From a virus: a stretch of DNA of 53,404 nt. A program made the translations under genes and the position numbers. Positions 15,294-53,000 of the stretch are shown here, one piece after another. A model generated the notes under the pieces. That model saw only the letters and a program-made list of their open reading frames with translations. It searched no databases and was not told the DNA's origin. The stretch is from the IMG/VR virus record IMGVR_UViG_3300025096_000025, positions 1 to 53,404 of that record. The stretch is one strand, 5' to 3'. Position 1 is the first letter of the stretch. Each line of letters begins with the position of its first letter.

Positions 15294-16496
15294 ATGAGCG
15301 ACGAAGATGATAAAGAGGCTGTAGGTATCCCCTTAGAAAAAACAGAACCGGTTGATGATATTCCTGTGTTGGATAGTATTCCAGACCTAGAAATCCCAGA
15401 TATAGATTTAGAAGATTTTGATATTCCAGATGAAGAAGAAACAGCAGTAGAAGATGAATCTGGCGGTTCACAGGTATTTGCTTGGATTGGTTCTGGTCAA
15501 GGCGGCGGTAGAATTGCTAAGGCTTTTTATGATAGAGGTTATAAAAAATGCATCGCTGTTAATACCTCGCACCATGACTTAGATGGTTTAGATATTCCGA
15601 AAGAACAAAAATTATTACTAGATGTTGGTGAACAAGGTGCTGGTAAGGATATGGAAAAAGGGTATGCAGCTGCTAACAAGTATAAGCAGAATATCTTTGA
15701 TCTTATGCGTAAAGTATATGGTAACAATGTAGACCATGTGTTTGTCTGTGTTGGAGCTGGCGGTGGTAGCGGCTCTGGTTCTTCTTTAGTGCTAATTGAT
15801 ATCGCTAAAAAGTACATGAAGTATATTGGACATGATAATCCAGACGAAAGAGTTGGTGTAGTAATGTCACTACCAACTAGAGGTGAAGCAACGTCTCCCA
15901 TAGTCTCCAGTAATGCACATAAGGTTCTCAAGACAGTAGGTGACTATGCTGAGAATGATTCTATTTCACCTCTCTTAATTATTGACAATTCAAAGATAGA
16001 AAGGTTATATAAAGGACTAACAGTGAAGCAGTTTTGGCCAACAGTTAATAATACTATATCAGGTCTCTTTCATGTGTTTAATGTATTAACAAGTAACCCT
16101 TCACCATATACGTCTTTTGATCCGACGGATTATGCTAGTGTATTAAGGTGTGGCGGCGTTATGGTGCTTGGTGTAGCAAAGCTTAAAGAGTTTGAAGATG
16201 AACAAAAAGTATCAGCTGCTATAAAGTCGAATCTTGAGAAAACATTATTAACAGATGTAGAATTATCAGACGCTAAAGTAGCTGCTTGTGTAGCTATTGG
16301 TAGTAAAGATATTATGGAAAACACTCCAGGTTTAATGGATAGTCTATCTTATGGATTTGATACCTTAGGATCTGTATGTCCTAAAGCTACAGTACATAGA
16401 GGTATATATGAAGACAACAAAGATAGCTTAAGACTGTATACAATTGTGTCTGGTTTAGATATTCCTAAGAAAAGACTACAACAATTATCATCATAG
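15294..16496 (+). CDS. FtsZ/tubulin-like GTPase
   Basis: The 400-aa protein has an acidic, repetitive 60-residue N-terminal extension (IPDLEIPDIDLEDFDIPDEE), then a tubulin/FtsZ fold. GSGQGGGRIAKAF (residues 66-78) is the first nucleotide loop. GAGGGSGSGSS (154-164) is the tubulin signature. VNTSHHDLDGL and the acidic G112-E113-Q114 segment fit the remaining nucleotide contacts. Related phage proteins (PhuZ, TubZ types) form filaments that position DNA or capsids. The late promoter puts expression in the structural phase. The C-terminal third is divergent, so assignment to a named subfamily is not possible. Confidence 0.8.
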   Translation: MSDEDDKEAVGIPLEKTEPVDDIPVLDSIPDLEIPDIDLEDFDIPDEEETAVEDESGGSQVFAWIGSGQGGGRIAKAFYDRGYKKCIAVNTSHHDLDGLDIPKEQKLLLDVGEQGAGKDMEKGYAAANKYKQNIFDLMRKVYGNNVDHVFVCVGAGGGSGSGSSLVLIDIAKKYMKYIGHDNPDERVGVVMSLPTRGEATSPIVSSNAHKVLKTVGDYAENDSISPLLIIDNSKIERLYKGLTVKQFWPTVNNTISGLFHVFNVLTSNPSPYTSFDPTDYASVLRCGGVMVLGVAKLKEFEDEQKVSAAIKSNLEKTLLTDVELSDAKVAACVAIGSKDIMENTPGLMDSLSYGFDTLGSVCPKATVHRGIYEDNKDSLRLYTIVSGLDIPKKRLQQLSS

Positions 16497-16522
16497 TTGA
16501 CATTACGAAAACATTATGTATA

Positions 16523-16534
16523 ATAAATATAGAT
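16523..16534 (+). promoter_or_regulatory. Late promoter
   Basis: ATAAATA at 16523-16529, -12 to -6 from the ATG at 16535. Confidence 0.8.
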
Positions 16535-17005
16535 ATGAAACTTAAATTATTTACTGCAATTGCAGTATTAGCTGGACTTGCCACGGCAAGTGGGACTCCT
16601 GAAGAGGAAGAAGGAAGAAAACATCGACATCACCCTGGAATTAAGCAGTTGATTGAAAAGTTTGACAAAGACGGAGATGGTAAGCTAAGTGCTGAAGAGC
16701 GTAAAGCTGCTGGTGAAGCTCGTAAAGCTGAGTTTTTAAAGAAGTTTGACAAAGACGGAGATGGTAAAATTAGCGCTGAAGAAAAGAAAGCTATTGCTGA
16801 AGAATGGAGAAGTCGAAGAGGTGCTCGTCCAGAAGGTCGTCGCCCTAGACCAGAAGGTCGCAAGCCACACGGCAAGCCTGGTAAGCCAGAAGGTCGCAAG
16901 CCACACGGCAAGCCTGGTAAGCCAGAAGGTCGCAAGCCACACGGCAAGCCTGGTAAGCCAGAAGGTCGCAAGCCACACGGCAAAAAGCCTGCTAAAAAAA
17001 AGTAG
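16535..17005 (+). CDS. Secreted EF-hand protein with a basic repeat tail
   Basis: A signal peptide is evident (residues 1-19, ending ATASG). Two canonical EF-hand loops, DKDGDGKLSAEE and DKDGDGKISAEE, lie at about residues 44-55 and 71-82 and should bind Ca2+. From residue 100 the protein consists of nearly identical 12-residue units (PEGRKPHGKPGK) and ends in a Lys-rich tail, so the C terminus is strongly positive. It could bind lipopolysaccharide, peptidoglycan or DNA in the periplasm or outside the cell; this is inference. Expressed late. Confidence 0.8.
   Translation: MKLKLFTAIAVLAGLATASGTPEEEEGRKHRHHPGIKQLIEKFDKDGDGKLSAEERKAAGEARKAEFLKKFDKDGDGKISAEEKKAIAEEWRSRRGARPEGRRPRPEGRKPHGKPGKPEGRKPHGKPGKPEGRKPHGKPGKPEGRKPHGKKPAKKK
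16850..16983 (+). repeat. Tandem 36-bp repeats inside the EF-hand gene
   Basis: About 3.7 near-perfect copies of a 36-bp unit (starts 16850, 16886, 16922, 16958) encode PEGRKPHGKPGK. Near-identity at DNA level suggests recent expansion or slippage. Confidence 0.85.
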
Positions 17006-17079
17006 GACTAACCGCTCTCTGTAAGTGTGAAAAAACATGTGGATGTTCAGTTCTATCCTGCTCATGCATTAAATAACTT

Positions 17080-17495
17080 GGGGGTGTCTTGGATTCGACA
17101 TTAATTTGGATTTATGACCCGCATACCGTGGTTAATCGGTTGGCCACGTTAAAAGCCGATTAAAACACCATAACTGCAGAACACGAAGAAGCAGACCTTC
17201 TTTTGCAAGCAGAGTACATCCTTAACAACCCTGACGAGTTCTTGGTTGAAGAGGAAGTCCTCATGGCTGCCTAAAGAAAACAAATATGGATTCTCATAAA
17301 ATATTTGGGTAACAGAATGAGTTGTTGTTAGCTAACGATCAATGTAAAACCAGTTAGATTAGAGTATTACTAATTAAAAGAAATATAGGATTGGTTGGTA
17401 TGACCATATATCCTTAAAATAGAATATATCTAAGTATGTAGACGGTCATATTGATGGCTTGATGGACAGGGGTTCGATCCCCCTCACCTCCACCA
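17080..17495 (+). ncRNA. ssrA: Transfer-messenger RNA (tmRNA)
   Basis: The 5' end GGGGGTG (17080-17086) pairs with CACCTCC (17485-17491), followed by a discriminator A and an encoded CCA (17493-17495). The 5' domain has the tmRNA hallmark TTGGATTCGACA (17089-17100), and the 3' domain a tRNA T-arm with GGTTCGATCC (17471-17480). The most likely resume codon is GCA at 17176, opening a 32-codon tag frame that begins AEHEEADLLL, ends EEEVLMAA and stops with TAA at 17272-17274. The terminal Ala-Ala fits a protease-recognition degron. tmRNA with SmpB rescues stalled ribosomes. The role on a phage genome is unclear; no smpB is seen in this window. Confidence 0.9.
17176..17274 (+). other. tmRNA tag reading frame (32 codons)
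   Basis: An open frame from GCA at 17176 to TAA at 17272-17274. It is much longer than the 10-residue tag of E. coli and very acidic, ending in MAA. A later GCA (17191 or 17209) could be the true resume codon and would shorten the tag to 27 or 21 residues. Confidence 0.65.
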
Positions 17496-17498
17496 ATA

Positions 17499-17524
17499 GG
17501 AACCGCTCTATAATAAATATATAC
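17499..17524 (+). promoter_or_regulatory. Composite early/late promoter
   Basis: GGAAC (17499), TATAAT (17509-17514) and an overlapping ATAAATA (17513-17519, -12 to -6) precede the GTG at 17525, starting 4 nt after the tmRNA end. Confidence 0.7.
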
Positions 17525-18340
17525 GTGACTCAACAATTTGACGAAAATATGAAAGAGATAGTTCTTGGATTAATAGCTATAGGATCTGCGCCATTTTCAG
17601 CAGATAAAATACAGGATTATTTAGATAAAAGACCTGAATCCATAGAGCAAAAAATTAATGCTGTACAGGCATCTGAAGACATTATTTCATCAACAAGCTT
17701 TCATAGAGCAGCTGAAGAGTATCTTAAACAATATGACGCGAGAAATAAAAACGGGTATACTCCTCCGGAGCCAAGAACAGCTACCAAGACAAGGCCTGCA
17801 GTAGAAGATATACCACCAGATAAATCTGATTCTGATATATTAAGCATCGCTAGCAATTTAATTAAGCCGGTTGAAATATATGGCACAGATATAAGCGATC
17901 CACGTAATAAGAAATTTCTAAGACCTTATACAGATGATGTTGGTGTATATACTATTGGTATTGGTCATAAAATAGGTGACGGTTCAAAGACTGCAAAACA
18001 GAAATGGATAAGCAAGTATGGTAATTCTATTTCTCCGCGATTTGCAGAAAAGCTCTTTAACAATAAATTAGACTTTCATTTGAACCGTGTAAAGGATATT
18101 TTTGGATTAACTTTAAATGATTTATCTGATCAGCAAGCAGCTGTATTATTAGACATTAGTTATAGAGGTGATCTCTTACCGGACATGGATTGGGTAGAGT
18201 TATTACAAAAGGGGGAGAATGTAAAAGCTGCAAATAAATATCTAGACCATCAAGAATATAAAAAACGGAAAAAGAGAGGGAGAGACGGGGTAGTAAAAAG
18301 GATGGAACGTAATGCTGGTATACTTGCAAGTACAACTTAA
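17525..18340 (+). CDS. Phage lysozyme / muramidase (GH24-like endolysin)
   Basis: The GTG at 17525 fits the late box; the longer ATG frame at 17459 would overlap the tmRNA and is rejected. The C-terminal domain (about residues 100-271) carries PYTDDVGVYTIGIGHKIG, matching the DxxGxxTIGxGH core of T4-lysozyme-type muramidases. The catalytic Glu is normally about 9 residues before the Asp; here the nearest candidate is in PVEIYG, displaced by an insertion of about 14 residues. The N-terminal 100 residues are charged and of unknown function. A second lysin (amidase) lies at 20515. Confidence 0.75.
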   Translation: MTQQFDENMKEIVLGLIAIGSAPFSADKIQDYLDKRPESIEQKINAVQASEDIISSTSFHRAAEEYLKQYDARNKNGYTPPEPRTATKTRPAVEDIPPDKSDSDILSIASNLIKPVEIYGTDISDPRNKKFLRPYTDDVGVYTIGIGHKIGDGSKTAKQKWISKYGNSISPRFAEKLFNNKLDFHLNRVKDIFGLTLNDLSDQQAAVLLDISYRGDLLPDMDWVELLQKGENVKAANKYLDHQEYKKRKKRGRDGVVKRMERNAGILASTT

Positions 18341-24210: not shown

Positions 24211-25856
24211 TGAAAACTTATAGCTGGCTAAACGGAGATTCTAGAAAATTTCTTAAGCGTGGGTATTTAGAAGGGGATGAGTCACCAGAAGAAAGAATTC
24301 AAACTATTGCTGATTCTGCGGAGAAATATTTAGGTATTAAAGGATTTTCAGATAAGTTTACAGACTATATGTCTAAAGGGTTTTATTCTCTCTCTTCTCC
24401 TATTTGGTCTAATTTTGGTAAAAAGAGAGGCCTGCCTATTTCATGTTATGGGACTTATATTCCAGATGATATGGAGCTAATTCTTAATAAAGTTTCAGAA
24501 GTAGGTACAATGTCTAAAGTAGGCGGGGGAACCTCGGGCTATTTCGGAGCCGTTAGGCACAGGGGGGCTCCCATATCGTCTGGAGGCAGTGCGACTGGTG
24601 TTCATCACCAGCTTACAGTCTTTGATGCCCTTATAAACTATGTGTCACAAAGCAATGTTAGACGAGGGTCCTTTGCAGCTTATTTACCGGTTGAACATCC
24701 CGATATTGAGGAGTTCTTAAGAATAAGATCTGAAGGGGACAATATTCAAGATATATCTACAGGTGTATGTATTACCGATAAGTGGATGCATGCTGTAGTA
24801 GATGGTGATAAAGAAAAGAGAAAAATTTGGGGCAAGATAATAAGGAAACGATATGAGACAGGTTATCCATATATCTTCTGGACTGATACTGCTAATGATA
24901 ATGCTCCACAAGTTTATAAAGATAAAGGCAAAAGGATTCATGCAAGTAACCTTTGTACTGAAATATTTCTTTCTTCAGAGGAGGATGAATCGTTTGTTTG
25001 CGATTTATCTTCTCTTAATTTAGTCAAATGGGATGAAATTAAAGAGACAGATGCTATTGAAACATTAGTTTATTTTTTAGATGCGGTAATGTCTGAATTT
25101 ATTAAAAAGACCAAAGGGGTTAGATTTATGGAAGCTCCGCATAATTTTGCTGTTAGACAAAGGGCGCTTGGAGTTGGTGTTCTTGGATGGCATACATATT
25201 TACAATCTAAAAGAATTGCGTTTGAATCACTAGTAGCTAAGGCAACTAATAATGAAATATTTGTTAAGATAAAAGACAGGTGTGATAGAGCTACAAGAGA
25301 GCTTGCAGAGTTATTTGGTGAACCTGAGCTATGCAAAGGGTATGGTATTCGCAATGTCACCACTATGGCAATTGCCCCAACGACAAGCAGCTCTTTTATT
25401 CTTGGACAGGTGTCACCGTGTATTGAGCCATTAAATTCTAACTACTTCACAAAAGATTTAGCCAAGGGTAAGTTTACTTACCGTAACCCACATTTAGTTG
25501 AGCTTTTAGAAGAAAAAGGAAAAAATGATCCTAGTACATGGAAGAGTATTCTCACACACGGAGGTAGTGTGCAACATTTAAAATTTCTATCCGACGAGGA
25601 AAAAGGCATATTTAAAACATTTGGAGAGATATCTCAAAGAGAAATAATTATTCAAGCAGCAATGCGGCAAAAATATATTGATCAAGGGCAGTCCTTAAAT
25701 GTAATGATCCCGCCAAATACTAAGCCAAAAGAAGTAAGTGAATTATTAATTTATGCCTGGCAAAGTGGTATTAAGTCATTATACTATCAGAGGAGTGCTA
25801 ACCCTGCTCAAGAGCTGGCAAGAAATATTCTTAATTGCGCTTCATGTCAAGGCTAA
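24210..25856 (+). CDS. nrdA: Class I ribonucleotide reductase large subunit
   Basis: The catalytic subunit shows the redox Cys in LPISCYGT (C79), the active-site trio in SNLCTEIFL (Asn, radical Cys, Glu) and a C-terminal Cys pair (C543 and C546, NCASCQG) for re-reduction. At 548 aa it is shorter than typical NrdA (about 750) and lacks the N-terminal ATP-cone, so it should escape dATP inhibition, a common viral trait. It is coupled to nrdB and followed 5 nt later by clpP. Confidence 0.92.
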   Translation: MKTYSWLNGDSRKFLKRGYLEGDESPEERIQTIADSAEKYLGIKGFSDKFTDYMSKGFYSLSSPIWSNFGKKRGLPISCYGTYIPDDMELILNKVSEVGTMSKVGGGTSGYFGAVRHRGAPISSGGSATGVHHQLTVFDALINYVSQSNVRRGSFAAYLPVEHPDIEEFLRIRSEGDNIQDISTGVCITDKWMHAVVDGDKEKRKIWGKIIRKRYETGYPYIFWTDTANDNAPQVYKDKGKRIHASNLCTEIFLSSEEDESFVCDLSSLNLVKWDEIKETDAIETLVYFLDAVMSEFIKKTKGVRFMEAPHNFAVRQRALGVGVLGWHTYLQSKRIAFESLVAKATNNEIFVKIKDRCDRATRELAELFGEPELCKGYGIRNVTTMAIAPTTSSSFILGQVSPCIEPLNSNYFTKDLAKGKFTYRNPHLVELLEEKGKNDPSTWKSILTHGGSVQHLKFLSDEEKGIFKTFGEISQREIIIQAAMRQKYIDQGQSLNVMIPPNTKPKEVSELLIYAWQSGIKSLYYQRSANPAQELARNILNCASCQG

Positions 25857-25861
25857 ATATT

Positions 25862-26491
25862 ATGAAGTGGAAATATCAAAACGAAGAGGATACTCAAGAA
25901 GAACAACAAGAGCACTCCGGTCATCAATATATTATTAACACCGCGTCTTCCTCCGGTGGTTCTGTTACGAAAGTAATAGAAAATAATTTATATTTTTATG
26001 GTGATATTACAGAAGCTAATGCACTTGAATTAAACGCGGCATTATATGAACTCGATAAAAAACTTTCCATCACCGGGGTGTTTTTAGATATCAAACCGGT
26101 CATTAGATTGCATATTAATTCTTATGGTGGTTCTCTTTTTGCCGGTCTCGCAACTGTTGATGTTATCCGGAATTTAAAGAGTGATGTGCACTCTATTGTC
26201 GAAGGAGCAGCAGCATCAGCAGCAACTATTATATCTGTCGTGTGTACAAAGAGATCAATGGGGAGATATTCCAAAATGCTTATACATCAGTTAAGCTCTG
26301 GAGCTTATGGCAAGTATAATGAGTTGGAAGATGATATGGAAAATAACTCACACTTAATGAGCACTATAAAAGAGATTTATAAGGTATATACCAATGTGCC
26401 TATGAAAAAATTAAATGAGATATTAAAGCACGATCTTTGGTTTGATAGTAAAACGTGTCTAGAATTAGGTCTTGTTGACGAGATTAACTAA
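25862..26491 (+). CDS. clpP: ClpP-like serine protease
   Basis: The start at 25862 avoids the overlap of the longer frame at 25835 with nrdA. The ClpP/crotonase fold is seen in INSYGGSLFAGLA, the catalytic Ser in EGAAASAAT (S119) and the His in MLIHQLSS (H142); a downstream Asp lies in LWFDSKTCLELGLVDEI. The first 35 residues are an unusual Glu/Gln/Ser-rich extension. No Clp ATPase gene is near. It could mature phage proteins, as phage ClpP-type prohead proteases do, or work with the host Clp ATPase. Confidence 0.88.
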   Translation: MKWKYQNEEDTQEEQQEHSGHQYIINTASSSGGSVTKVIENNLYFYGDITEANALELNAALYELDKKLSITGVFLDIKPVIRLHINSYGGSLFAGLATVDVIRNLKSDVHSIVEGAAASAATIISVVCTKRSMGRYSKMLIHQLSSGAYGKYNELEDDMENNSHLMSTIKEIYKVYTNVPMKKLNEILKHDLWFDSKTCLELGLVDEIN

Positions 26492-39706: not shown

Positions 39707-42700
39707 ATGAGACTGTTTAGCGAAAAGGTAGTCCCTACCTTTACTAGCTCAGATCTTAACATCTTAACAGTTAAAAGTTTAGAAGAGACTTTTTTCGATG
39801 TTTATGAATTTGAGATAAACGGTAAAAAATTTATTGCAGAAAAGAAGAGCCTGTATATGGGCTCTCCTGTCGTAGATATACCGGTAGAGATAGAGGATGA
39901 AGAGTTTATAGCTCCTTTCATATTACGTGAAGGCGTATTTAATGTGGAGTTTAATAAAAATAATAAAACCTACGTAGGTTCAGTTACAAAAGAAGAGCCT
40001 GAAATAGTTTTAGAAGAGGTTGTAGAGGAAGAAGTAGAAGAAATAATCGACCTACCATCAATAGTTGATGAATTGTGTGTTGAACAGGGGTCCCCAACCT
40101 CGAGAATGATCTTTGATCAAAATGTAGATGTATCCGTATCGGATTATGATTATAATATTTTAATTGTAGATAATTTTGATGAAGTATATTTTGATATATT
40201 TGAAGTAAAGATTAATAATAAAACCTATAACGCGGAAAAGATATCTGAATATAAGGGACGGCCTGTAGTTAGTGTACCTATTATATTCGAAAATAAAGAA
40301 TATATTGCACCTTTTGTTCTAGAAAAAGGACCACAGGAAGTATTCTTTAATGAGAATAATTTACAATTTGTAAAACACATTAAGGAAGAGAAGTTAGACC
40401 TTCCGGAGTTTGATAAAGATGTTGTCGAGGATGTTGTTTTAGAGAAAAAAGAAGATATATTACAGGATATAGCTAAAGCGAGAAAATTAGCTAAAAAATA
40501 TGCTGAAGATATTAAGCAGCAAAAAATTGACGAAGCTAATAACACTATCAAGTCAAATGAGCAGCGAGTCGAGAGTTACTTAAAAGATGTTAGAGCAGAG
40601 TTAACGAGCGAATTTCTTACAATTGTAGAAAAAGTAAATACAGACTTAAAGGAAGATACAGAATCTACAACAAAAAATTTAACTTCTTATATTGAAACGT
40701 ATGTAGAAAGGGAAAGTAATAGGTTATTAGATAATTTAGAAGAGCTCAATGAAGGCAGTATTCAGCATTTTGAAGCAAAGATTCAAGAGTTAGTAAAGAA
40801 CATATACACCAACAATCTCACTAAGTTAATCAACGAGAAAAATAACGATAATATATCACGTTACACTAAGTTATTTAAGAATACAAAAACTTCGTTAGAA
40901 GAACTGTTGGATGAAAATAAAGAAGAAATAAAAACTTCTTTAGATAGTCTTGAGGAAAAGGTTGACATAGATATAACAACGCTAGAAAAAAGTAATGTAG
41001 TTTTAGAAGATAAATTACAACGCGGTCTTAACAAAGCTCTTAGCAGAGCCGGGAATATAAAGATAGATACATTAAAGGAAGTAGATAGCAGAATTAAAGT
41101 TACAGAGGAAAAAATAACTGATGTATACGAGGTAACGTTAAACGAGGTCGGTCAGCAGTTAGATAAAAGAATACAGGATGTATCTTATATTAACGAAAAA
41201 ATAGAAAACTTAACACAGGTTAGTGAGAGCGGTGCGCATGCTACGGAAGAAGAGTTAAAGGATGTAAAGAGTGATATTGTTAAGTTACAGGTTGAAAAAG
41301 GTCTATTAAGTGAAAGGATTGCTGAAAGTAAAGTTTTATTAGATAAAGGAATAGATAAACTAAACAAGCTTAATAAAAATATAGCTAAAGAAAATAAAAT
41401 CTATATAAAGGAAGAGGTAGATAAACTTACAAAATATAGTGAAAAAAGCTCCGAACAGACAGCTACTAAATTAGATAGATTTAGTAGCAAAGTAACTAAA
41501 CAGATACAAGAAGCTAAACAGCATTTAGATAAGGATTTAGAGAAGACAGACACAAAAATTTCTGAAGCTAAAAAATCCGCTCGAAAAGATATAGATAATA
41601 CTGAGCAAGTATTAACCTCTTTAATAGAGGCAAGGTTAGAAGATACTAATACCGAAATTAATAAGCTTTTAACAAAAAAGGTTAAAAAGGTAGATGATGA
41701 ATTTAAGGAGCAGCTAACATCTAAAATAGAGGAAAACAAAAAGATACTCTTTCAAGAGGTAGAAGAGTTAAAGCAAACACTACCTGAAACAATAGAAAAA
41801 AAATTAGCTCTAGAACAGGTACAATTTGATAAATTACCTGAAAAAAATGAAAAGATTGATGTTAAAGGTATTAAAAGAGATTTAGAGAATAAATTATCTT
41901 CAAGCTTAAATTCGAGATTTACGCAGGAAATAGCTGCTGTAAGAAGATATCTAGATACTTACGGCGGGGGAGGTGGTAGTGTTGCAAAGCAGTTTGCCGA
42001 TGGCGGTACTATGACGGGAGATCTTGACGTTATTAATAAAGCTAGTATATTGTCCGGTGGTGTAGATCTCGCTGATATATTTGCAACATCAGAAGAAGCA
42101 AGTGGAATAACCGGGTCAGGAACGAAAGGTTATGTACCTTATTTTTCTGATAGTACAACTTTAGCAAATAGTCTTTTAAGCGGCGGTACAGCTGTAACAA
42201 GAACGACTGGTTCTTTAAGCGCTACAACTGATATATATGTTGGTGGGTGTCTTGGTATTGGAACTGTCACACCAAATGAAGAACTTACTGTAGCTGGTAC
42301 CTTAAGCGCATGCACGTCTGTTTACAGCAACAGTATCTGTGGTATATCAACAGTTTGTGGTGCTGCTGTATGCGGTACAACTTCAGTTCGTAGTCCTGCT
42401 GTATGCGGTACAACTTCAGTTCGTAGTCCTGCTGTTTGTGGTTCAACTTCTGTTTGCGGAGGTACTGTAGTAGGTACTTCTATAAGCGCTACATCTACCA
42501 ACAGTGGTTTTGTTTCAGCAGGAAGGGACTTAGCTGATATATTTACAACTTGCTCTGGTGATGTAACCGGTGTTACAGCCGGCCCTGGTCTATCTGGAGG
42601 GGGTACAGAAGGAGACGTAACTGTCGGTGTTGGTTTTGGTGACGGTATAACTGTTGCCGCCGACACGGTTGCAGTTGATAGTACAGTTGTAAGAACAACT

Positions 42701-44011
42701 GGAGATCAAACTATTGCCGGTAAGAAGACATTTTCTAGAGGTATAACTACATCTGATGGTCTTAGTGCTACAGCTACTACAAATGGTTTTGTTTCAGCAG
42801 GAAGGGATCTTGCTGATATATTTGCAACCTCATCTGGTAACGTTGATGGTTCTGGTAACACAGGTTATTTGTCATATTGGTCTGATACAGATACACTAGC
42901 AAATAGTCTTTTAAGCGGCGGTACAGCTGTAACAAGAACGACTGGTTCTTTAAGCGCCACAACTGATATATATGTTGGTGGGTGTCTTGGTATTGGAACT
43001 GTCACACCAAATGAAAACCTTACTATAGCTGGTAATGTAAGTGCTACAGGGACTTTATCAGCAGCTGATGCTAAATTTGGAAGTGATAGTATAACTATAA
43101 ATGGTCCGGCTGGGACGATCTATACAACTGGTGCAATTTGTACCAATAGCTATCTTCAGTCCTATGGCGGTACTTCTTGTTTCGGTGGTGCTGCTGTCAA
43201 TCTTTGCGAAGCTACACCCCTCTATGCTTGTGGCTGTGTGCGAGTTGGACAAGGGATCTCTGGTGGAATTCCCTTAGTTGTTACTGGTAATCTTAGTGCG
43301 ACAAGTACTTTAAGCGGTAGTGCTGTTGAAACTTCTGATACAACCAGAGGGTTTGTTTCAGCTGGTCGTGACTTAGCTGATATATTTGCTAGGTCAGCTG
43401 GCAACATAACAGGAGTGACAGCTGGACCAGGTTTATCGGGAGGAGGATCTACCGGGGATGTAACTGTTAGTGTTAGTTGGGGAGACGGTATAACAGATGG
43501 TGGAGACGCGGTCGCAGTTGATAGCACGGTTGTAAGAACGACAGGAGCGGAATCGATTGGAGGATTAAAGACGTTTACAGATAATATTACTACATCACGT
43601 GGTCTTACTGCACATGATGGTCTAAGCGCTAGATCAACTCGAAATGGTTTTGTTTCAGCTGGTCGTGACTTAGCTGATATATTTTCTTTTGCAAAAATAT
43701 TTACCAAAGGTACAGGTTTAGCTAATGGCAGTGTAATAGATACCTTTTCTACTTCTGATATGTCAGCTGGGAAGTATGCTATACAAGTTAAACGCACCGG
43801 TGGTGGTACATATTTTAGTGAATTAAGCATAACAACAGACGGTACTAATTTAGGGGTTGTTGAATATGGGGTGAATCATACTACATCTGAACCTTTTGTA
43901 CAATATGGGGCTGTTGTTTCCGGTGGTACGGTATCTTTAACAGCGCAAAAAACCGGGGCGTATGATATGGCTGATTTTGAGTTTAAAGGGAATAGACTTA
44001 ATTTATTCTAA
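39707..44011 (+). CDS. Long tail-fibre protein with coiled-coil shaft (1,434 aa)
   Basis: Two homologous N-terminal domains (about 1-90 and 143-228; FFDVYEFEINGKKFIAEK versus YFDIFEVKINNKTYNAEK) probably attach to the virion. A long coiled coil (about 250-755) forms a shaft. From about 765 the protein consists of fibre modules: GxVDLADIF/GRDLADIF units at 42055-43680 (five copies), GIGTVTPNExLTVAG units and LSGGTAVTRTTGSLSA. A short Cys array (about 42340-42470) has the 11-residue repeat of the next gene. The C terminus (GKYAIQVKRTGGG and on) may bind the receptor. Confidence 0.85.
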   Translation: MRLFSEKVVPTFTSSDLNILTVKSLEETFFDVYEFEINGKKFIAEKKSLYMGSPVVDIPVEIEDEEFIAPFILREGVFNVEFNKNNKTYVGSVTKEEPEIVLEEVVEEEVEEIIDLPSIVDELCVEQGSPTSRMIFDQNVDVSVSDYDYNILIVDNFDEVYFDIFEVKINNKTYNAEKISEYKGRPVVSVPIIFENKEYIAPFVLEKGPQEVFFNENNLQFVKHIKEEKLDLPEFDKDVVEDVVLEKKEDILQDIAKARKLAKKYAEDIKQQKIDEANNTIKSNEQRVESYLKDVRAELTSEFLTIVEKVNTDLKEDTESTTKNLTSYIETYVERESNRLLDNLEELNEGSIQHFEAKIQELVKNIYTNNLTKLINEKNNDNISRYTKLFKNTKTSLEELLDENKEEIKTSLDSLEEKVDIDITTLEKSNVVLEDKLQRGLNKALSRAGNIKIDTLKEVDSRIKVTEEKITDVYEVTLNEVGQQLDKRIQDVSYINEKIENLTQVSESGAHATEEELKDVKSDIVKLQVEKGLLSERIAESKVLLDKGIDKLNKLNKNIAKENKIYIKEEVDKLTKYSEKSSEQTATKLDRFSSKVTKQIQEAKQHLDKDLEKTDTKISEAKKSARKDIDNTEQVLTSLIEARLEDTNTEINKLLTKKVKKVDDEFKEQLTSKIEENKKILFQEVEELKQTLPETIEKKLALEQVQFDKLPEKNEKIDVKGIKRDLENKLSSSLNSRFTQEIAAVRRYLDTYGGGGGSVAKQFADGGTMTGDLDVINKASILSGGVDLADIFATSEEASGITGSGTKGYVPYFSDSTTLANSLLSGGTAVTRTTGSLSATTDIYVGGCLGIGTVTPNEELTVAGTLSACTSVYSNSICGISTVCGAAVCGTTSVRSPAVCGTTSVRSPAVCGSTSVCGGTVVGTSISATSTNSGFVSAGRDLADIFTTCSGDVTGVTAGPGLSGGGTEGDVTVGVGFGDGITVAADTVAVDSTVVRTTGDQTIAGKKTFSRGITTSDGLSATATTNGFVSAGRDLADIFATSSGNVDGSGNTGYLSYWSDTDTLANSLLSGGTAVTRTTGSLSATTDIYVGGCLGIGTVTPNENLTIAGNVSATGTLSAADAKFGSDSITINGPAGTIYTTGAICTNSYLQSYGGTSCFGGAAVNLCEATPLYACGCVRVGQGISGGIPLVVTGNLSATSTLSGSAVETSDTTRGFVSAGRDLADIFARSAGNITGVTAGPGLSGGGSTGDVTVSVSWGDGITDGGDAVAVDSTVVRTTGAESIGGLKTFTDNITTSRGLTAHDGLSARSTRNGFVSAGRDLADIFSFAKIFTKGTGLANGSVIDTFSTSDMSAGKYAIQVKRTGGGTYFSELSITTDGTNLGVVEYGVNHTTSEPFVQYGAVVSGGTVSLTAQKTGAYDMADFEFKGNRLNLF

Positions 44012-44061: not shown

Positions 44062-47000
44062 ATGGCACTTAATAAAGACTTTAAAGTAAAGAATGGGCTA
44101 ACTGTGACCCAAGATCTATCTGTTGGTGGAAATGCGTATCTTAATGCACTAACTGGTACAAATGCGACGTTCACTAAATTAACCGCAACAGAATTTGAAG
44201 CAACTTCTGCAACTTTTACAAGGACAATTGTATCATCAACTTCAGCTTTATCTGTTATTAATCATGGTACAGGTCCTGCTTTATATGTAAGGCAAAAGGG
44301 AGCCCAACCAATCGCACAGTTTATAGATCAAGAAGGCGGAGAAATACATTTTGCAGATACCGGTGCTCTCGGCGTTAATACATCATCTCCAAATGAAAAA
44401 CTTACCGTATCTGGTAACATAAGCGCTCTTGGTAGTCTTAGTGCTGGTCTAGGGTCGCAAATTGCTGCTTGTAATAGTGCAGCTGGAGGCTTTATATCAG
44501 GTGGTCGTGATCTTGCTGATATATTTGCTACATCTTCTGGTAGCGTTGAAGGATCAGGTAGCACAGGTTATTTATCATATTGGTCTGATAGTAATACTTT
44601 AGCGGATAGTCTTTTAAGCGGTGGTACAGCTGTAACAAGAACAACTGGTGCCTTAAGTGCTGCTACATCTATTTGTAGCCCAGCTATATGTGGTACAACA
44701 TCTGTTTGTGGTGCAGCTGTTTGCGGTACTACATCTGTTTGTGGTCCTGCTGTATGCGGTACAACATCTGTTTGTGGTCCTGCTGTATGCGGTACAACTT
44801 CTGTTTGTGGTCCTGCTGTATGCGGTACAACTTCAGTTTGTAGCCCAGCCGTCTGCGGTACAACATCAGTTTGTGGTGCAGCTGTTTGCGGTACTACATC
44901 AGTTTGTGGTGCAGCTGTTTGCGGTACATCAACAGTTTGTAGCCCGCAAGTTTGTGGTACAACAAAAGTACAAGGAGTGGCTGTATGTGGTACAACATCA
45001 GTTTGTGGTGCTCTTGTTTGTTCTACTGGTAGTATAGTTGGTGATTCTCTAAGCGCTTATAAGGGGTTAAGTGGGTTACATGTTGCTGCTTGTAATAGTT
45101 CTTATGGAGGATTTATATCCGGCGGGCGTGATTTAGCTGATATATTTACAACTTGCTCTGGTGATGTGACCGGTGTTACAGCCGGGCCTGGTCTATCCGG
45201 AGGAGGTACAGAAGGAGACGTAACTCTCGGTGTTGGTTTTGGTGACGGTATAACTGTTGCCGCCGACACGGTTGCAGTTGATAGTACGGTTGTAAGAACA
45301 ACCGGTGCACAATCGATTGGAGGAGCAAAGACATTTTCTAGTGATATAACTACATCACGTGGCCTTACTGCACATGGTGGTCTAAGCGCTAGATCAACTA
45401 GAAATGGTTTTGTTTCAGCTGGGCGTGATTTAGCTGATATATTTGAAACATGCTCTAGTAGTGTTGATGGATCAGGAACCGCCAATTTCGGAGCGCAATG
45501 GTCAGATACAGACACATTAACAGATAGTCTTTTAAGCGGCGGTACAGACATGACCAGAACTACTGGTTCTTTGAGTGCTTCTACAGCTATTTGTAGTCCT
45601 GCTATATGCGGTACGACATCAGTTTGCGGTGCAGCTGTATGCGGTTCAACATCTGTTTGTAGTCCTGCTGTTTGTGGTACATCAACAGTTTGTAGCCCAG
45701 CTATATGCGGTACGACATCAGTTCGTAGCCCTGCTGTCTGCGGTACAACATCAGTATGTGGTGCAGCTGTATGTGGTACAACATCAGTATGTGGTCCAGC
45801 TGTCTGTGGTACAACTTCAGTTTGTGGTGCTCTTGTTTGTGGTACAACATCAGTTTGCGGATTTGAGGTCGTCGGTGGCTCTTTAAGCGCTACATCTACC
45901 AACAGCGGTATTGTTTCTGCTGGTCGTGATCTTGCTGATATATTTGCTACTAGTTCAGGTAACGTTGATGGATCAGGTAGCACAGGTTATATACCAAGTT
46001 GGTCTGATAGTGATACTTTAACCAATAGTCTTTTAAGCGGTGGTACAGCTGTAACAAGAACGACAGGCACCTTAAGTGCTGCCACAGCTATTTGTAGTCC
46101 TGCTGTTTGCGGTACAACATCAGTTTGCGGTGCTGCTGTTTGTGGTACAACATCTGTTTGTAGTCCTGCTGTTTGCGGTACTACATCTGTTTGTGGTCCT
46201 GCTGTTTGTGGTACAACTTCAGTTTGTGGTCCTGCTGTTTGTGGTACAACATCAGTTTGTAGTCCACAAGTTTGTGGTACGACAAAAGTACAGGGAGTGG
46301 CAGTCTGTGGTACTACATCTGTTTGTGGTGCTCTTATTTGTTCTACTGGTAGTATAGTAGGTACTTCTTTAAGCGCTTATAAGGGTTTAAGCGGGCTCCA
46401 TGTTGCTGCTTGTAATAGTTCTTATGGTGGCTTTATCTCCGGTGGTCGTGATCTTGCTGATATATTTGCAACCTCATCCGGTAACGTTGATGGATCAGGA
46501 ACTGCCGGTTTTGGAGCGCAATGGTCTGATAGTAATACTTTAACGGATAGTCTTTTAAGTGGTGGTACAGCTGTAACAAGAACAACGGGCACCTTAAGTG
46601 CTGCTACAGCTGTTTGTAGTCCTGCTATATGCGGTACAACATCTGTCTGTGGTGCAGCTGTATGCGGTACAACTTCTGTTTGTAGTCCTGCTGTTTGTGG
46701 TACGACATCAGTTTGTAGTCCGGCTGTCTGTGGTAGTACATCAGTTTGTAGCCCAGCTGTCTGTGGTACAACATCAGTTTGTGGTGCAGCTGTTTGCGGT
46801 ACTACATCAGTTTGTAGTCCACAAGTTTGCGGTTCAACAAAAGTACAGGGAGTAGCTGTTTGCGGTACAACATCAGTTTGTGGTGGTACTGTATATGGTA
46901 CTACTATAAGCGCTTCTAATGGTCTTAGTGCTACTGGAGGCACTAATTATTTTGCTTGTAATGTTGGGATAGGGACACCAGCAGACGCTAGTTATGGCCT

Positions 47001-50000
47001 TAGGGTGAACGGTTTCATAAAAGACACCAGATTCTCTACGAGCAATAGCCAAATCATTCACGCTAATAACAACTCTCAGTTGAAATTGGGGAACGCTTTA
47101 TTCTCAGAAGTTTCTAACACGGACATAAGCATAACACCAAATGGCGGTGACTCCTATTTTGATGGTGGTAATGTCGGCATAGGAACATCGACACCTAATC
47201 AAAAACTTACTGTATCAGGTAACATAAGCGCTCTTGGTAGTCTTAGTGCTGGTCTCGGGTCGCAAATCGCTGCTTGTAATAGTGCAGCTGGCGGCTTTAT
47301 ATCAGGTGGTCGCGATCTTGCTGATATATTTGCAACTAGTTCAGGTAACGTTGACGGTTCTGGTAGCACAGGTTATTTATCATATTGGTCTGACAGTGAT
47401 ACTTTAGCAGATAGTCTTTTAAGCGGTGGTACAGCTGTAACAAGAACAACTGGTACCTTAAGTGCTTCTACAGCTATTTGTAGCCCAGCTATATGTGGTA
47501 CAACTTCTGTCTGTGGTGCAGCTGTCTGCGGTACAACATCTGTTTGTAGCCCTGCTGTATGTGGTACATCAACAGTTTGTAGTCCACAAGTTTGTGGTAC
47601 GACAAAAGTACAGGGAGTGGCAGTCTGTGGTACTACATCAGTTTGTGGTGCTCTTGTTTGTTCTACCGGTAGTATAGTAGGTACTTCTGTAAGCGCTTAT
47701 AATGGTTTAAGCGGGTTGCACTTTGCTGCTTGTAATAGTTCTTATGGTGGCTTTATTTCCGGAGGGAGAGACCTAGCTGATATATTTGAAACATGCTCTA
47801 GTAGTGTTGATGGATCAGGAACTGCCGGTTTTGGAGCGCAATGGTCAGATACAGACACATTAACAGATAGTCTTTTAAGCGGTGGTACAGATGTAACAAG
47901 AACAACAGGTACCTTAAGCGCTGCCACAGCTGTCTGTAGCCCAGCTATATGCGGTACAACTTCTGTATGCGGTGCTGCTGTCTGTGGTACAACTTCAGTT
48001 TGTAGCCCTGCTGTATGCGGTACAACTTCTGTTTGTGGCCCTGCTGTATGCGGTACAACTTCTGTTTGTGGTCCTGCTGTATGCGGTAGTACATCTGTTT
48101 GTAGTCCAGCTGTCTGTGGTACAACATCTGTCTGTGGTGCTGCTGTCTGTGGTACATCAACAGTTTGTAGTCCGCAAGTTTGTGGTACAACAAAAGTACA
48201 GGGAGTAGCTGTTTGCGGTACAACTTCAGTTTGTGGTGCTCTTGTTTGTTCTACCGGGAGTATAGTTGGTAATTCTGTAAGTGCTTATAATGGTTTAAGT
48301 GGATTACATGTCGCTGCTTGTAATAGTTCATACGGTGGATTTATTTCCGGTGGTCGCGACTTAGTAGATGTTTTTGCTGGCGGTTGTTGTTTAGGTACAG
48401 TTACAAGTGTTACAGGTGGTGATGGTATTGATTCTACTGGTGGTACTACTCCTGAGATTGCTGTTAACACTACTGTTGTTCGAACAACCGGAGATCAAAC
48501 TATAGCTGGTAATAAATCATTTACCGGCAATACTTCCATGACTGGTAATCTATCCGTAAGGGGTACAGTCACTTGCATTGATACACGAATAGAGACAACG
48601 TCTGCTGTAGAGATTCATAACTCAGGTACAGGTCCGGCGTTATGTGTTAATCAAACAGGAGCACAACCTGTCGCTGATTTTCAGGACGACGGAACGTCAG
48701 CTCTTTATATTGAAGACGGTGGTAATGTAGGTATAGGGACCAATGATCCAAATCAACTTCTCACTGTAGCTGGTACCTTAAGCGCTTGCACGTCTGTTTG
48801 CAGCCCAGCTATCTGTGGTATATCAACAGTTTGTGGTTCTGCTGTATGCGGTACAACATCTGTTTGTAGTCCACAAGTTTGTGGTACAACAAAAGTACAA
48901 GGGGTGGCTGTTTGTGGTACTACATCTGTTTGTGGTGCTGCTGTATGCGGTACAACTTCTGTTTGTAGCCCAGCTGTTTGTGGTACAACATCAGTTTGTG
49001 GTCCTGCTGTATGCGGTAGTACATCTGTTACTTCTCCAGCTGTCTGTGGTACAACTTCAGTTTGCGGTGCTCTTATTTGTTCTACTGGTAGTATAGTAGG
49101 TACTTCTTTAAGCGCTTATAAGGGGTTAAGCGGGCTCCATGTTGCTGCTTGTAATAGTTCTTATGGTGGCTTTATCTCCGGTGGTCGTGATCTTGCTGAT
49201 ATATTTGCAATATCATCCGATAACGTTGATGGATCAGGAACTGCCGGTTTCGGAGCGCAATGGTCTGATGGTAATACTTTAACAGATAGTTTACTAAGCG
49301 GCGGTACAGATGTAACAAGAACAACCGGTACCTTAAGTGCTTCTACAGCTATTTGTAGTCCTGCTATATGTGGTACTACATCTGTATGTGGTGCAGCTGT
49401 TTGCGGTACAACATCTGTTTGTGGTCCTGCTGTCTGTGGTACAACATCTGTTTGTGGTGCAGCTGTTTGCGGTACAACATCTGTTTGTGGTCCTGCTGTA
49501 TGCGGTACAACATCTGTTTGTAGTCCTGCTGTCTGTGGTACAACATCAGTTTGTGGTCCTGCTGTATGCGGTACAACATCTGTTTGTGGTCCTCAAGTTT
49601 GTGGTACGACAAAAGTGCAGGGAGTAGCTGTTTGCGGTACAACATCAGTTTGTGGTCCTGCTGTTTGCGGTACTACATCTGTCTGTGGAGGTACTGTAGT
49701 AGGTACTTCTATAAGCGCTACATCTACCAATAGTGGTATTGTTTCCGCTGGTCGTGATCTTGCTGATATATTTGCTACATCTTCTGGTAGCGTTGAAGGA
49801 TCAGGTAGCACAGGTTATTTATCATATTGGTCTGATAGTAATACTTTAGCGGATAGTCTTTTAAGTGGTGGTTCACAGGTAACAAGAACAACGGGGACCT
49901 TAAGTGCCGGTTGTTTAATTGGTCCTGCTGTATGCGGTACAACATCAGTTTGCGGTGCAGCGGTTTGCGGTACAACTTCTGTTTGTGGTCCTGCTGTATG

Positions 50001-53000
50001 CGGTACAACATCAGTTTGTAGCCCTGCTGTTTGCGGTACTACATCTGTTTGTGGTGCAGCTGTCTGTGGTACAACATCTGTTTGTAGCCCAGCCGTCTGC
50101 GGTACTACATCTGTTTGTGGTGCAGCTGTCTGTGGTACAACTTCAGTTTGCGGTGCAGCTGTTTGTGGTACTACATCTGTTTGTAGTCCTGCTGTTTGTG
50201 GTTCAACATCAGTTTGCGGTGCTCTTATTTGTTCTACTGGTAGTATCGTCGGTGATTCTTTAAGTGCTTATAATGGTTTAAGCGGGCTCCATGTTGCTGC
50301 TTGTAACAGTTCATACGGTGGCTTTATATCAGGCGGTCGCGATTTAGTAGATGTTTTTGCTGGTGGTTGCTGCTTAGGTACAGTCACTAGTGTCGCTGGT
50401 GGTGATGGTATGTCCGGCACGGTAACATCTTCCGGTTCGTTGGCAGTTGACAGCACAGTTGTAAGAACAACCGGAGCACAAACTATAGCTGGTAATAAAT
50501 CATTCACCGGTGATACTTCCATGACCGGAAATCTTTCGGTACGAGGTACCGTTACATGTATCGATACGCGTATTGAAACAACGTCTGCTGTGGAGATTCA
50601 TAACTCAGGTACAGGACCAGCATTATGTGTTAATCAAACAGGAGCGCAGCCGGTCGCTGACTTCCAAGACGATAGTACATCAGCTTTGTATATTGCAAAT
50701 GGCGGTAATGTTGGTATAGGGACCAATGATCCAAATGAAGAACTTACTGTAGCTGGTACGTTGAGTGCTTGCACGTCTGTTTGCAGCCCAGCTGTCTGTG
50801 GTATATCAACAGTTTGTGGTTCTGCTGTCTGTGGTACAGCTTCAGTTTGTGGTCCTGCTGTATGCGGTACTACATCTGTATGCGGTGCTGCTGTCTGTGG
50901 TACAACTTCAGTTTGTGGTCCTGCTGTTTGTGGTACGACATCAGTTTGTAGTCCGCAAGTTTGCGGTACAACAAAAGTACAGGGAGTAGCTGTTTGCGGT
51001 ACTACATCAGTTTGTGGTGCTCTTATTTGTTCTACTGGTAGTATCGTCGGTGATTCTTTAAGCGCTTATAAGGGCTTAAGTGGGTTACATGTTGCTGCTT
51101 GTAATAGTTCTTATGGTGGTTTTATATCAGGTGGTCGTGATTTAGCAGATATATTTGCAGTCTCTTCTGGTAGTGTTGATGGTTCCGGAACTGCTAATTT
51201 CTTACCAAGTTGGTCTGATAGTAATACTTTAACGGATAGTCTTTTAAGTGGTGGTACAGCTGTAACAAGAACAACTGGTACCTTAAGTGCTAACTGTTTA
51301 ACTGGCCCTTCTGTCTGTGGTACAACATCAGTTTGTGGTCCTGCTGTATGTGGTACAACATCTGTATGTGGTGCAGCTGTCTGTGGTACAACATCTGTTT
51401 GTAGTCCACAAGTTTGCGGTACAACAAAAGTACAAGGAGTAGCTGTATGCGGTACAACTTCTGTTTGCGGTGCTCTTGTTTGTTCTACTGGTAGTATAGT
51501 TGGTGATTCTCTAAGCGCTTATAAGGGCTTAAGTGGGTTACATGTTGCTGCTTGTAACAGTTCATACGGCGGCTTTATATCAGGTGGAAGAGACTTAGTT
51601 GATGTATTTACAGGTGGTTGTTGTACAGGTACTACAACAGCGAGCAATACCCAAACATTTACCAACAAAAGCGGTAACATATCACAATGGACAAATGATA
51701 GTGGTTATACCGATTGTTTAGGTACAGTAACAAGTGTTACAGGTGGTGATGGTATTGATTCTACTGGTGGTACTACTCCTGAGATTACTGTTAACACTAC
51801 AGTTGTTAGAACAACAGGAGATCAAACTATTGCCGGCAATAAATCATTTACCGGTAATACTTCCATGACCGGGAATCTTTCAGTTCGTGGTACTGTTACA
51901 TGTATTGATACGCGGATTGAGACAACATCAGCGGTTGAAATTCATAACTCAGGTACAGGACCAGCATTATGTGTTAATCAGACAGGAGCACAGCCAGTAG
52001 CTAATTTCCTAGACGACAGTACATCAGCTTTGTATATTGCAAATGGTGGTAATGTAGGTATCGGTACAGATAATCCAAATGAAGAACTTACTGTAGCTGG
52101 TACCTTAAGCGCTTGCACGTCTGTTTGCAGCCCAGCTATCTGTGGTATATCAACAGTTTGTGGTTCTGCTGTCTGTGGTACAACATCTGTTTGTGGTCCT
52201 GCTGTTTGCGGTTCAACTTCTGTTTGTGGTCCTGCTGTATGTGGTACAACATCTGTATGTGGTCCTGCTGTATGTGGTACAACTTCAGTTTGCGGTGCAG
52301 CTATTTGTGGTACAACATCAGTATGTGGTCCTCAAGTTTGTGGTTCAACAAAAGTACAGGGACCAGCTGTCTGCGGTACGACTTCAGTTTGTGGAGGTAC
52401 TGTATATGGTACTACTTTAAGCGCTTCTAATGGTCTTAGTGCTACTGGAGCCGCTAATTATTTTTCTGGTAAGGTTGGTATCGGAACTGCGACACCAACC
52501 GCAAATCTTGATATAACCTCTGCCTTAAATCAACAGCATTTATATATTCAAGGTGCTAACAGCGGAACGACCCCACTCGCATATATAAAAACTATAGCTG
52601 GTGGAAGTGTTTTGCAGTTGGAAACTGGCACAGCCTCAGATAGTAGAGACATTCTTAAAGCTAAAAATTCAAGCGGGGTAGTTCTTAACCTTCAAGCTGA
52701 TGGCAAACTCGGCATCGGCACTGAGAATCCAGGACAAAAACTTACTGTATCAGGTAACATAAGCGCTCTTGGTAGTCTTAGTGCTGGTCTCGGGTCGCAA
52801 ATCGCTGCTTGTAATAGTGCAGCCGGTGGATTTATATCAGGTGGTCGTGACTTAGCTGATATATTTGCAGTCTCTTCTGGTAGCGTTGATGGATCAGGTA
52901 GCACAGGTTATTTATCATATTGGACTGATAGTAATACTTTAGCAGATAGCCTTTTAAGCGGCGGTACAGATGTAACAAGAACAACGGGGACCTTAAGTGC

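Follow-up and report, generated by a model that had tools for sequence, protein, structure and literature searches.

A phage-borne tmRNA encodes a long tag whose conserved internal core is constrained as a peptide

Transfer-messenger RNA (tmRNA) genes are already known from phages, and the new element described here is a conserved core inside the tag that such a gene encodes. The DNA analysed (53,404 nucleotides, IMG/VR record IMGVR_UViG_3300025096_000025, called the window below) is a viral contig and a genome fragment, with RNR, lysozyme, baseplate, TubZ-like and ClpP-like genes. This marine phage has a one-piece tmRNA gene that specifies a 32-residue tag; the tag core, shared by many uncultured phages, is constrained as a peptide, and this constraint exceeds that on the C-terminal degron. 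The strongest result of the analysis is that the tag appears to be translated and that its core seems to matter as protein; a specific peptide-level role of the core is well supported. The literature searched, mostly outside subscription journals, did not mention an internal core that is conserved among the tags of phages.

The tmRNA was called by ARAGORN at exactly 17080-17495 (+), unpermuted and with the tag AEHEEADLLLQAEYILNNPDEFLVEEEVLMAA. The Rfam model RF00023 matched the same span end-to-end (model positions 1-374) with 137 bits and an E-value of 1.4e-53, the gathering score being 47. This gene is the sole tRNA or tmRNA gene of the window and also its sole Rfam match. A sequence-only reading had proposed a complete tmRNA at this place, together with an acceptor pairing, GGATTCGAC, a T-arm and an encoded CCA, and each of these elements is indeed present, the acceptor stem and the T-arm being 100% paired in 13 sequences. 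The fold had been left to a covariance model; RF00023 matched over its full length, with low posterior support for the middle part. The features of the locus are collected in Table 1.

Table 1. Features at and around the tmRNA gene of the window.
Feature	Position	Strand	Basis
Upstream neighbour, EF-hand protein with 36-nt tandem repeats	16535..17005	+	PF00036; syntenic in relatives
TTAAATA, T4-late-promoter-like box	17069..17075	+	consensus match, just ahead of the mature 5' end
One-piece tmRNA gene (ssrA), CCA encoded	17080..17495	+	ARAGORN; RF00023; covariation across 13 sequences
Acceptor stem, 5' side, pairs with 17485-17491, G3·U	17080..17086	+	helix 100% paired
Pseudoknot PK1, stems GTGG/CCAC and ATCGG/CCGAT	17128..17160	+	100% and 98.5% of cells paired, compensatory changes
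Tag reading frame, 32 codons and TAA, AEHEEADLLLQAEYILNNPDEFLVEEEVLMAA	17176..17274	+	ARAGORN; homologous tags in 107 loci; protein-level selection
Conserved tag core, here LLLQAEYILNNPDEF, family consensus LLAEAEYIFNNADEF	17197..17241	+	pN/pS; randomised substitutions
Pseudoknot PK2, stems AAATAT/ATATTT and CTCAT/ATGAG	17282..17321	+	helix 7 92% and helix 8 94% of cells paired, compensatory changes
T-arm	17468..17484	+	100% paired; double changes in 4/5 pairs
Downstream neighbour, phage lysozyme, start inferred at GTG 17525 in a conserved stretch	17525..18340	+	PF00959; phrog_7 endolysin; syntenic

The structure was further assessed in 13 aligned tmRNAs, for which the acceptor stem, H2, PK1, PK2 and the T-arm were drawn by hand and the paired cells were counted. 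In this structure 87.4% of the cells are paired, against 41-53% when it is slid. Double changes were observed in 27 pairs, and the covariation score was reached by no shuffle. The helices assigned to the PK3/PK4 region are weaker, with 74-81% pairing (nested stems only). The acceptor stem consists of 7 base pairs, and its G3·U pair is invariant in all 13 sequences. A G3·U pair in the acceptor stem is the main alanine identity element for AlaRS. The tmRNA of the window is almost certainly authentic and conserved, and very probably functional. Covariation of the structure, synteny within the phage group and strong selection on the tag peptide support the earlier proposal that this tmRNA is functional and encodes a long acidic tag.

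The tag frame of 32 codons ending in MAA had been read from the letters alone in the same form as the ARAGORN tag, and its C-terminus is VLMAA. Among contigs related through their RNR, a tmRNA above the Rfam cut-off was present in 13 of 40 records, and many of these tmRNAs are long-tagged. A family of homologous tags was collected using IMG/VR DNA-pattern scans for PK1 and for the tag core, resulting in 107 phage loci; some of these are overlapping fetches of one contig, and the distinct frames are therefore the better count. There are 74 distinct ORFs encoding 60 distinct peptides, all 32-35 aa long. Most distinct tags (61/74) end in LAA or MAA, and the other 13 end in LFA, LVA, LTA, MVA, LLT, CLA, YAA, MFV, LAV or LEA. 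The core is a segment of 15 residues, family-wide LLA[EQ]AEYIFNNADEF, and is followed by an acidic stretch of variable length. In the tag of the window, A12, E13, I15 and N17 are the near-invariant residues. An AlphaFold2 model of the tag, which is weak evidence for a 32-residue peptide (pTM 0.41), has a helix at residues 2-17, a pLDDT of about 92 at residues 11-20 and shorter helices thereafter.

The constraint on the tag was estimated using a tree made from the tmRNA flanks without the tag, on which 31 pairs with non-overlapping paths were compared. Across the whole tag pN/pS is 0.29. The core has the lowest value, 0.090 (bootstrap 0.064-0.119), whereas the N-terminus has 0.50, the acidic tail 0.56 and the final three residues 0.38. 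When the substitutions within the core were randomised, none of 1000 trials gave as few amino-acid changes as observed (47.5, with a random mean of 116.8). A count over all pairs of 39 sequences agrees with this, giving a core pN/pS of 0.14. The synonymous sites of the core differ freely, which indicates that it is the peptide, rather than an RNA helix, that is constrained. Many loci were fetched with a pattern derived from the core, which biases the set toward conserved cores; the set fetched with PK1 only, and thus blind to the tag, gives the same picture.

The core was also looked for outside this family, using the pattern E-Y-[IM]-[FL]-N-N-[AP]-D-[DE]. No bacterial or archaeal tmRNA with the core was found in 84,980 scanned species genomes, among which the host may not be included. 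In these genomes the pattern occurs in 8 contigs, each time within a longer unrelated frame and near the number expected by chance, and mimicry of a bacterial protein was rejected for this reason. Among 50,697 phage records, neither the tmRNA (BLAST) nor the tag (tblastn) was found, and no isolate phage with the core was seen. Phages may thus have a private way to mark proteins.

In the account that we favour, a functional, late-expressed phage tmRNA provides a tag whose core docks tagged proteins on a recognition protein; as a whole, this account is probably correct, with ample room for doubt. Transcription would start from the T4-type late box right at the 5' end of the tmRNA, and the host AlaRS would recognise the G3·U pair and charge the tmRNA with alanine. 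The search for SmpB that the sequence-only reading had proposed found none in the window or in 42 related contigs (possibly fragments), so that the phage tmRNA would presumably work with SmpB supplied by the host. During infection, as the family suggests, the tmRNA would enter ribosomes stalled on broken mRNA and add alanine and the 32-residue tag. The tag consists of two parts, a variable C-terminus that ends in a Clp-type degron (LAA/MAA) in the majority of members, and the helical core LLAEAEYIFNNADEF, which is preserved as a peptide. The core would most likely serve as a docking segment for a specific adaptor or protease, of host or phage origin, in an SspB-like manner, and the tagged fragments would be degraded fast, returning amino acids and ribosomes to phage synthesis. 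A precedent for such an adaptor is SspB, which docks the front half of the Escherichia coli tag (PMC9382460). The redirected tagging that had been suggested from the sequence is compatible with these findings. A bolder version is that recognition of the tag has moved from the C-terminal LAA to the internal helical LLAEAEYIFNNADEF with a dedicated partner, so that the phage picks the fate of stalled products, and that two other types of long phage tags (types 2 and 3, described below) are independent inventions of this strategy. We put this forward tentatively, as possible but somewhat doubtful.

The core could also be a helical acidic spacer that docks nothing specific and that provides solubility or a long initiation segment for an AAA+ protease. 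The tag is highly acidic and a helix is predicted, and the unrelated long tags of types 2 and 3 in other phage tmRNAs also look amphipathic, which would fit a generic role. However, a generic spacer should tolerate substitution, whereas individual core residues are nearly invariant, and the equally acidic tail has a pN/pS of 0.56 against 0.09 in the core; we therefore consider a spacer unlikely. That the tag serves a purpose other than degradation, by diverting fragments to a host protein or inhibiting one (mimicry or counter-defence), is suggested by a constraint on the core that exceeds that on the C-terminal degron, and by one lineage that lost the canonical LAA ends (MVA, LFA, MFV) and kept the core. 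A weak match of the tag profile to a TPR helix pair of BepA (E 0.0016) points in the same direction, but it is short and may reflect convergence of helical repeats, and a Pfam search with the tag gave no match. In addition, LAA or MAA is retained in most tags, and a search of 6.3 million codons of fetched loci revealed the core in no phage protein encoded outside a tmRNA, on which ground mimicry of another phage protein was rejected. A purpose of this kind is, in our judgement, quite improbable.

The sequence-only reading had also raised the possibility that the gene is a former integration target carried along. In this case the tmRNA would be a functionless remnant of an attB site or of an imprecise excision, and it is true that ssrA is a common integration site and that prophage-mediated gene transfer has been considered for the ssrA of phage Melnitz (Buchholz et al., PMC9004378). 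This claim was not supported, as an integrase was found in neither the window nor 11 related contigs, and in the window, itself a genome fragment, the tmRNA 3' end is not duplicated and no att-like repeat was found. Also, the gene is complete, its helices covary and its tag core is under strong purifying selection, which leaves a remnant extremely improbable.

Within the docking account, the reader of the tag core is most likely host-encoded. Several phage-encoded partners were considered and rejected. A general link to ClpP was discarded, as the protease is present in just 11 of 42 related contigs and missing from several with lengths of 190-217 kb. Of 20 records searched, none has SspB and one has a Clp-type AAA_2 unfoldase; the AAA matches are mostly of clamp-loader size. 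The one unfoldase is an 831-aa frame (G043:C1:195982-197493) in a related phage of 217 kb. In the window, a ClpP-like protease with an apparent S/H/D catalytic triad is encoded at 25835-26491, directly after nrdA. Regarding the host, the DNA polymerase of a relative of 171 kb has at most 33% identity to those of cyanophages, and phages of alphaproteobacteria have the closest RNR. Two genes taken for terminase and major capsid genes in the host search turned out to encode a helicase and a connector protein, and they were discarded.

In comparison with the bacterial one-piece tmRNA (RF00023), the gene of the window shares the full-length match, the tRNA-like domain, PK1 and a well-supported PK2, a frame ending in MAA and the CCA. 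It differs in being phage-borne, in its 32-residue tag and in a core that was not found in bacterial tmRNAs. The commonest length of a tmRNA tag is 10 aa (PMC11915505). The Methylophilales phage Melnitz and the pelagimyophages are marine T4-like phages that likewise have their own ssrA (PMC9004378), and a 685-aa adenylate-cyclase-like protein of the window has about 40% identity to proteins of Melnitz and HTVC008M. However, the tmRNA of Melnitz is two-piece and permuted, with a 14-residue tag, ANDNYVPVDYALAA (PMC9004378), whereas that of the window is one-piece; the permutation of the two-piece tmRNAs of alphaproteobacteria and pelagimyophages is absent from the window gene. A long SsrA tag whose recognition is unlike the usual ClpXP reading of LAA is known from the Mollicute Mesoplasma florum (PMC9382460). 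This tag has NYAFA at its C-terminus and is recognised by Lon, whereas the tag of the window has no NYAFA, and no sequence similarity between the two was seen.

Other modifications of tmRNA have also been observed in phages. Mycobacteriophage DS6A has a tmRNA that consists of the tRNA-like domain only, without a tag, and a form of this kind acts as an inhibitor of tmRNA in E. coli (PMC11915505, PMC4131195). Two related phages in our set have DS6A-like genes of 70 nt with this domain only (L093 1501-1570 and L094 1501-1570), scoring 57 bits to RF00023. Ordinary short tags also occur among phage tmRNAs, and two further types of long tags were seen, both without obvious similarity to the core. 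Type 2 has the form APSxxEADAILAKYGYADxELLAA and type 3 the form AKVITNAVEAVKSAMTNVVEFFxEEESYALAA; their loci are L082, L083, L088, L116, L244-L257; L105, L133, L258-L260; and L106. Long conserved tags therefore seem to be a recurrent habit of phages. A survey by Buchholz et al. found tmRNA in 402 of 18,146 phage genomes (PMC9004378), and huge phages carry tmRNA together with SmpB (PMC7162821). Upkeep of the host machinery and recycling of amino acids have been suggested as reasons for phage tmRNA (PMC9004378). These suggestions predict nothing about the tag. A core that is conserved over about 100 phage loci, and more strongly so than the degron end, provides a testable handle, namely to find its binder. 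Should this binder be an adaptor or a protease, a bacterial pathway of quality control would have been rewired by phages. Another possible use of the core is as an orthogonal degron.

The order EF-hand gene, tmRNA, lysozyme gene is present in every relative that spans both sides (L117, L142, L150, L167, L168 and L128), and the EF-hand and lysozyme proteins of these relatives are 57-77% identical to those of the window; L166 is a near-identical phage. In L106, a different tmRNA with a different, type-3-like long tag follows the same EF-hand gene, and the tmRNA gene is therefore exchangeable at this locus. The window has a (T/G)AAATA box just ahead of its tmRNA, as do six relatives with type 1 tags at the locus and L084/L106, and the TTAAATA of the window looks like a T4-type late box. 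In L086, L091, L118, L144, L152, L180 and further members of the tag family, (G/A)TTCTTTGAAA or ATCTTTGAAA is conserved just ahead of the tmRNA, resembling a boxA antitermination element. A composite promoter had been placed 3 nt past the tmRNA; instead, a TATAATAAATA box lies at 17509-17519, 14 nt beyond the gene and without a -35 match, and the only nearby perfect sigma70-type site occupies 16497-16524, ahead of the EF-hand gene that precedes the tmRNA. Exact TATAATAAATA boxes start at 16519, 17509 and 18729, and with one mismatch allowed there are 19 against 4.8 expected; the box is likely a phage promoter motif, judging from these counts.

The EF-hand protein has a likely signal peptide and the 36-nt repeat PEGRKPHGKPGK, and it was not found in isolate phages by tblastn. 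Two genes ahead of the tmRNA, at 15294-16496, this T4-like phage encodes a TubZ/FtsZ-like GTPase (PF00091). Stop-codon recoding in the repeat region at 44-53 kb was rejected as a cause of stalling, as a standard-code frame is open there from 44062 to the end of the window. This frame (44062-53403, +, 3' end open) has at least 3114 standard-code codons and is preceded by a 1434-aa frame at 39707-44011. Its 33-nt repeats encode TSVCGPAVCGT, with regularly spaced cysteines.
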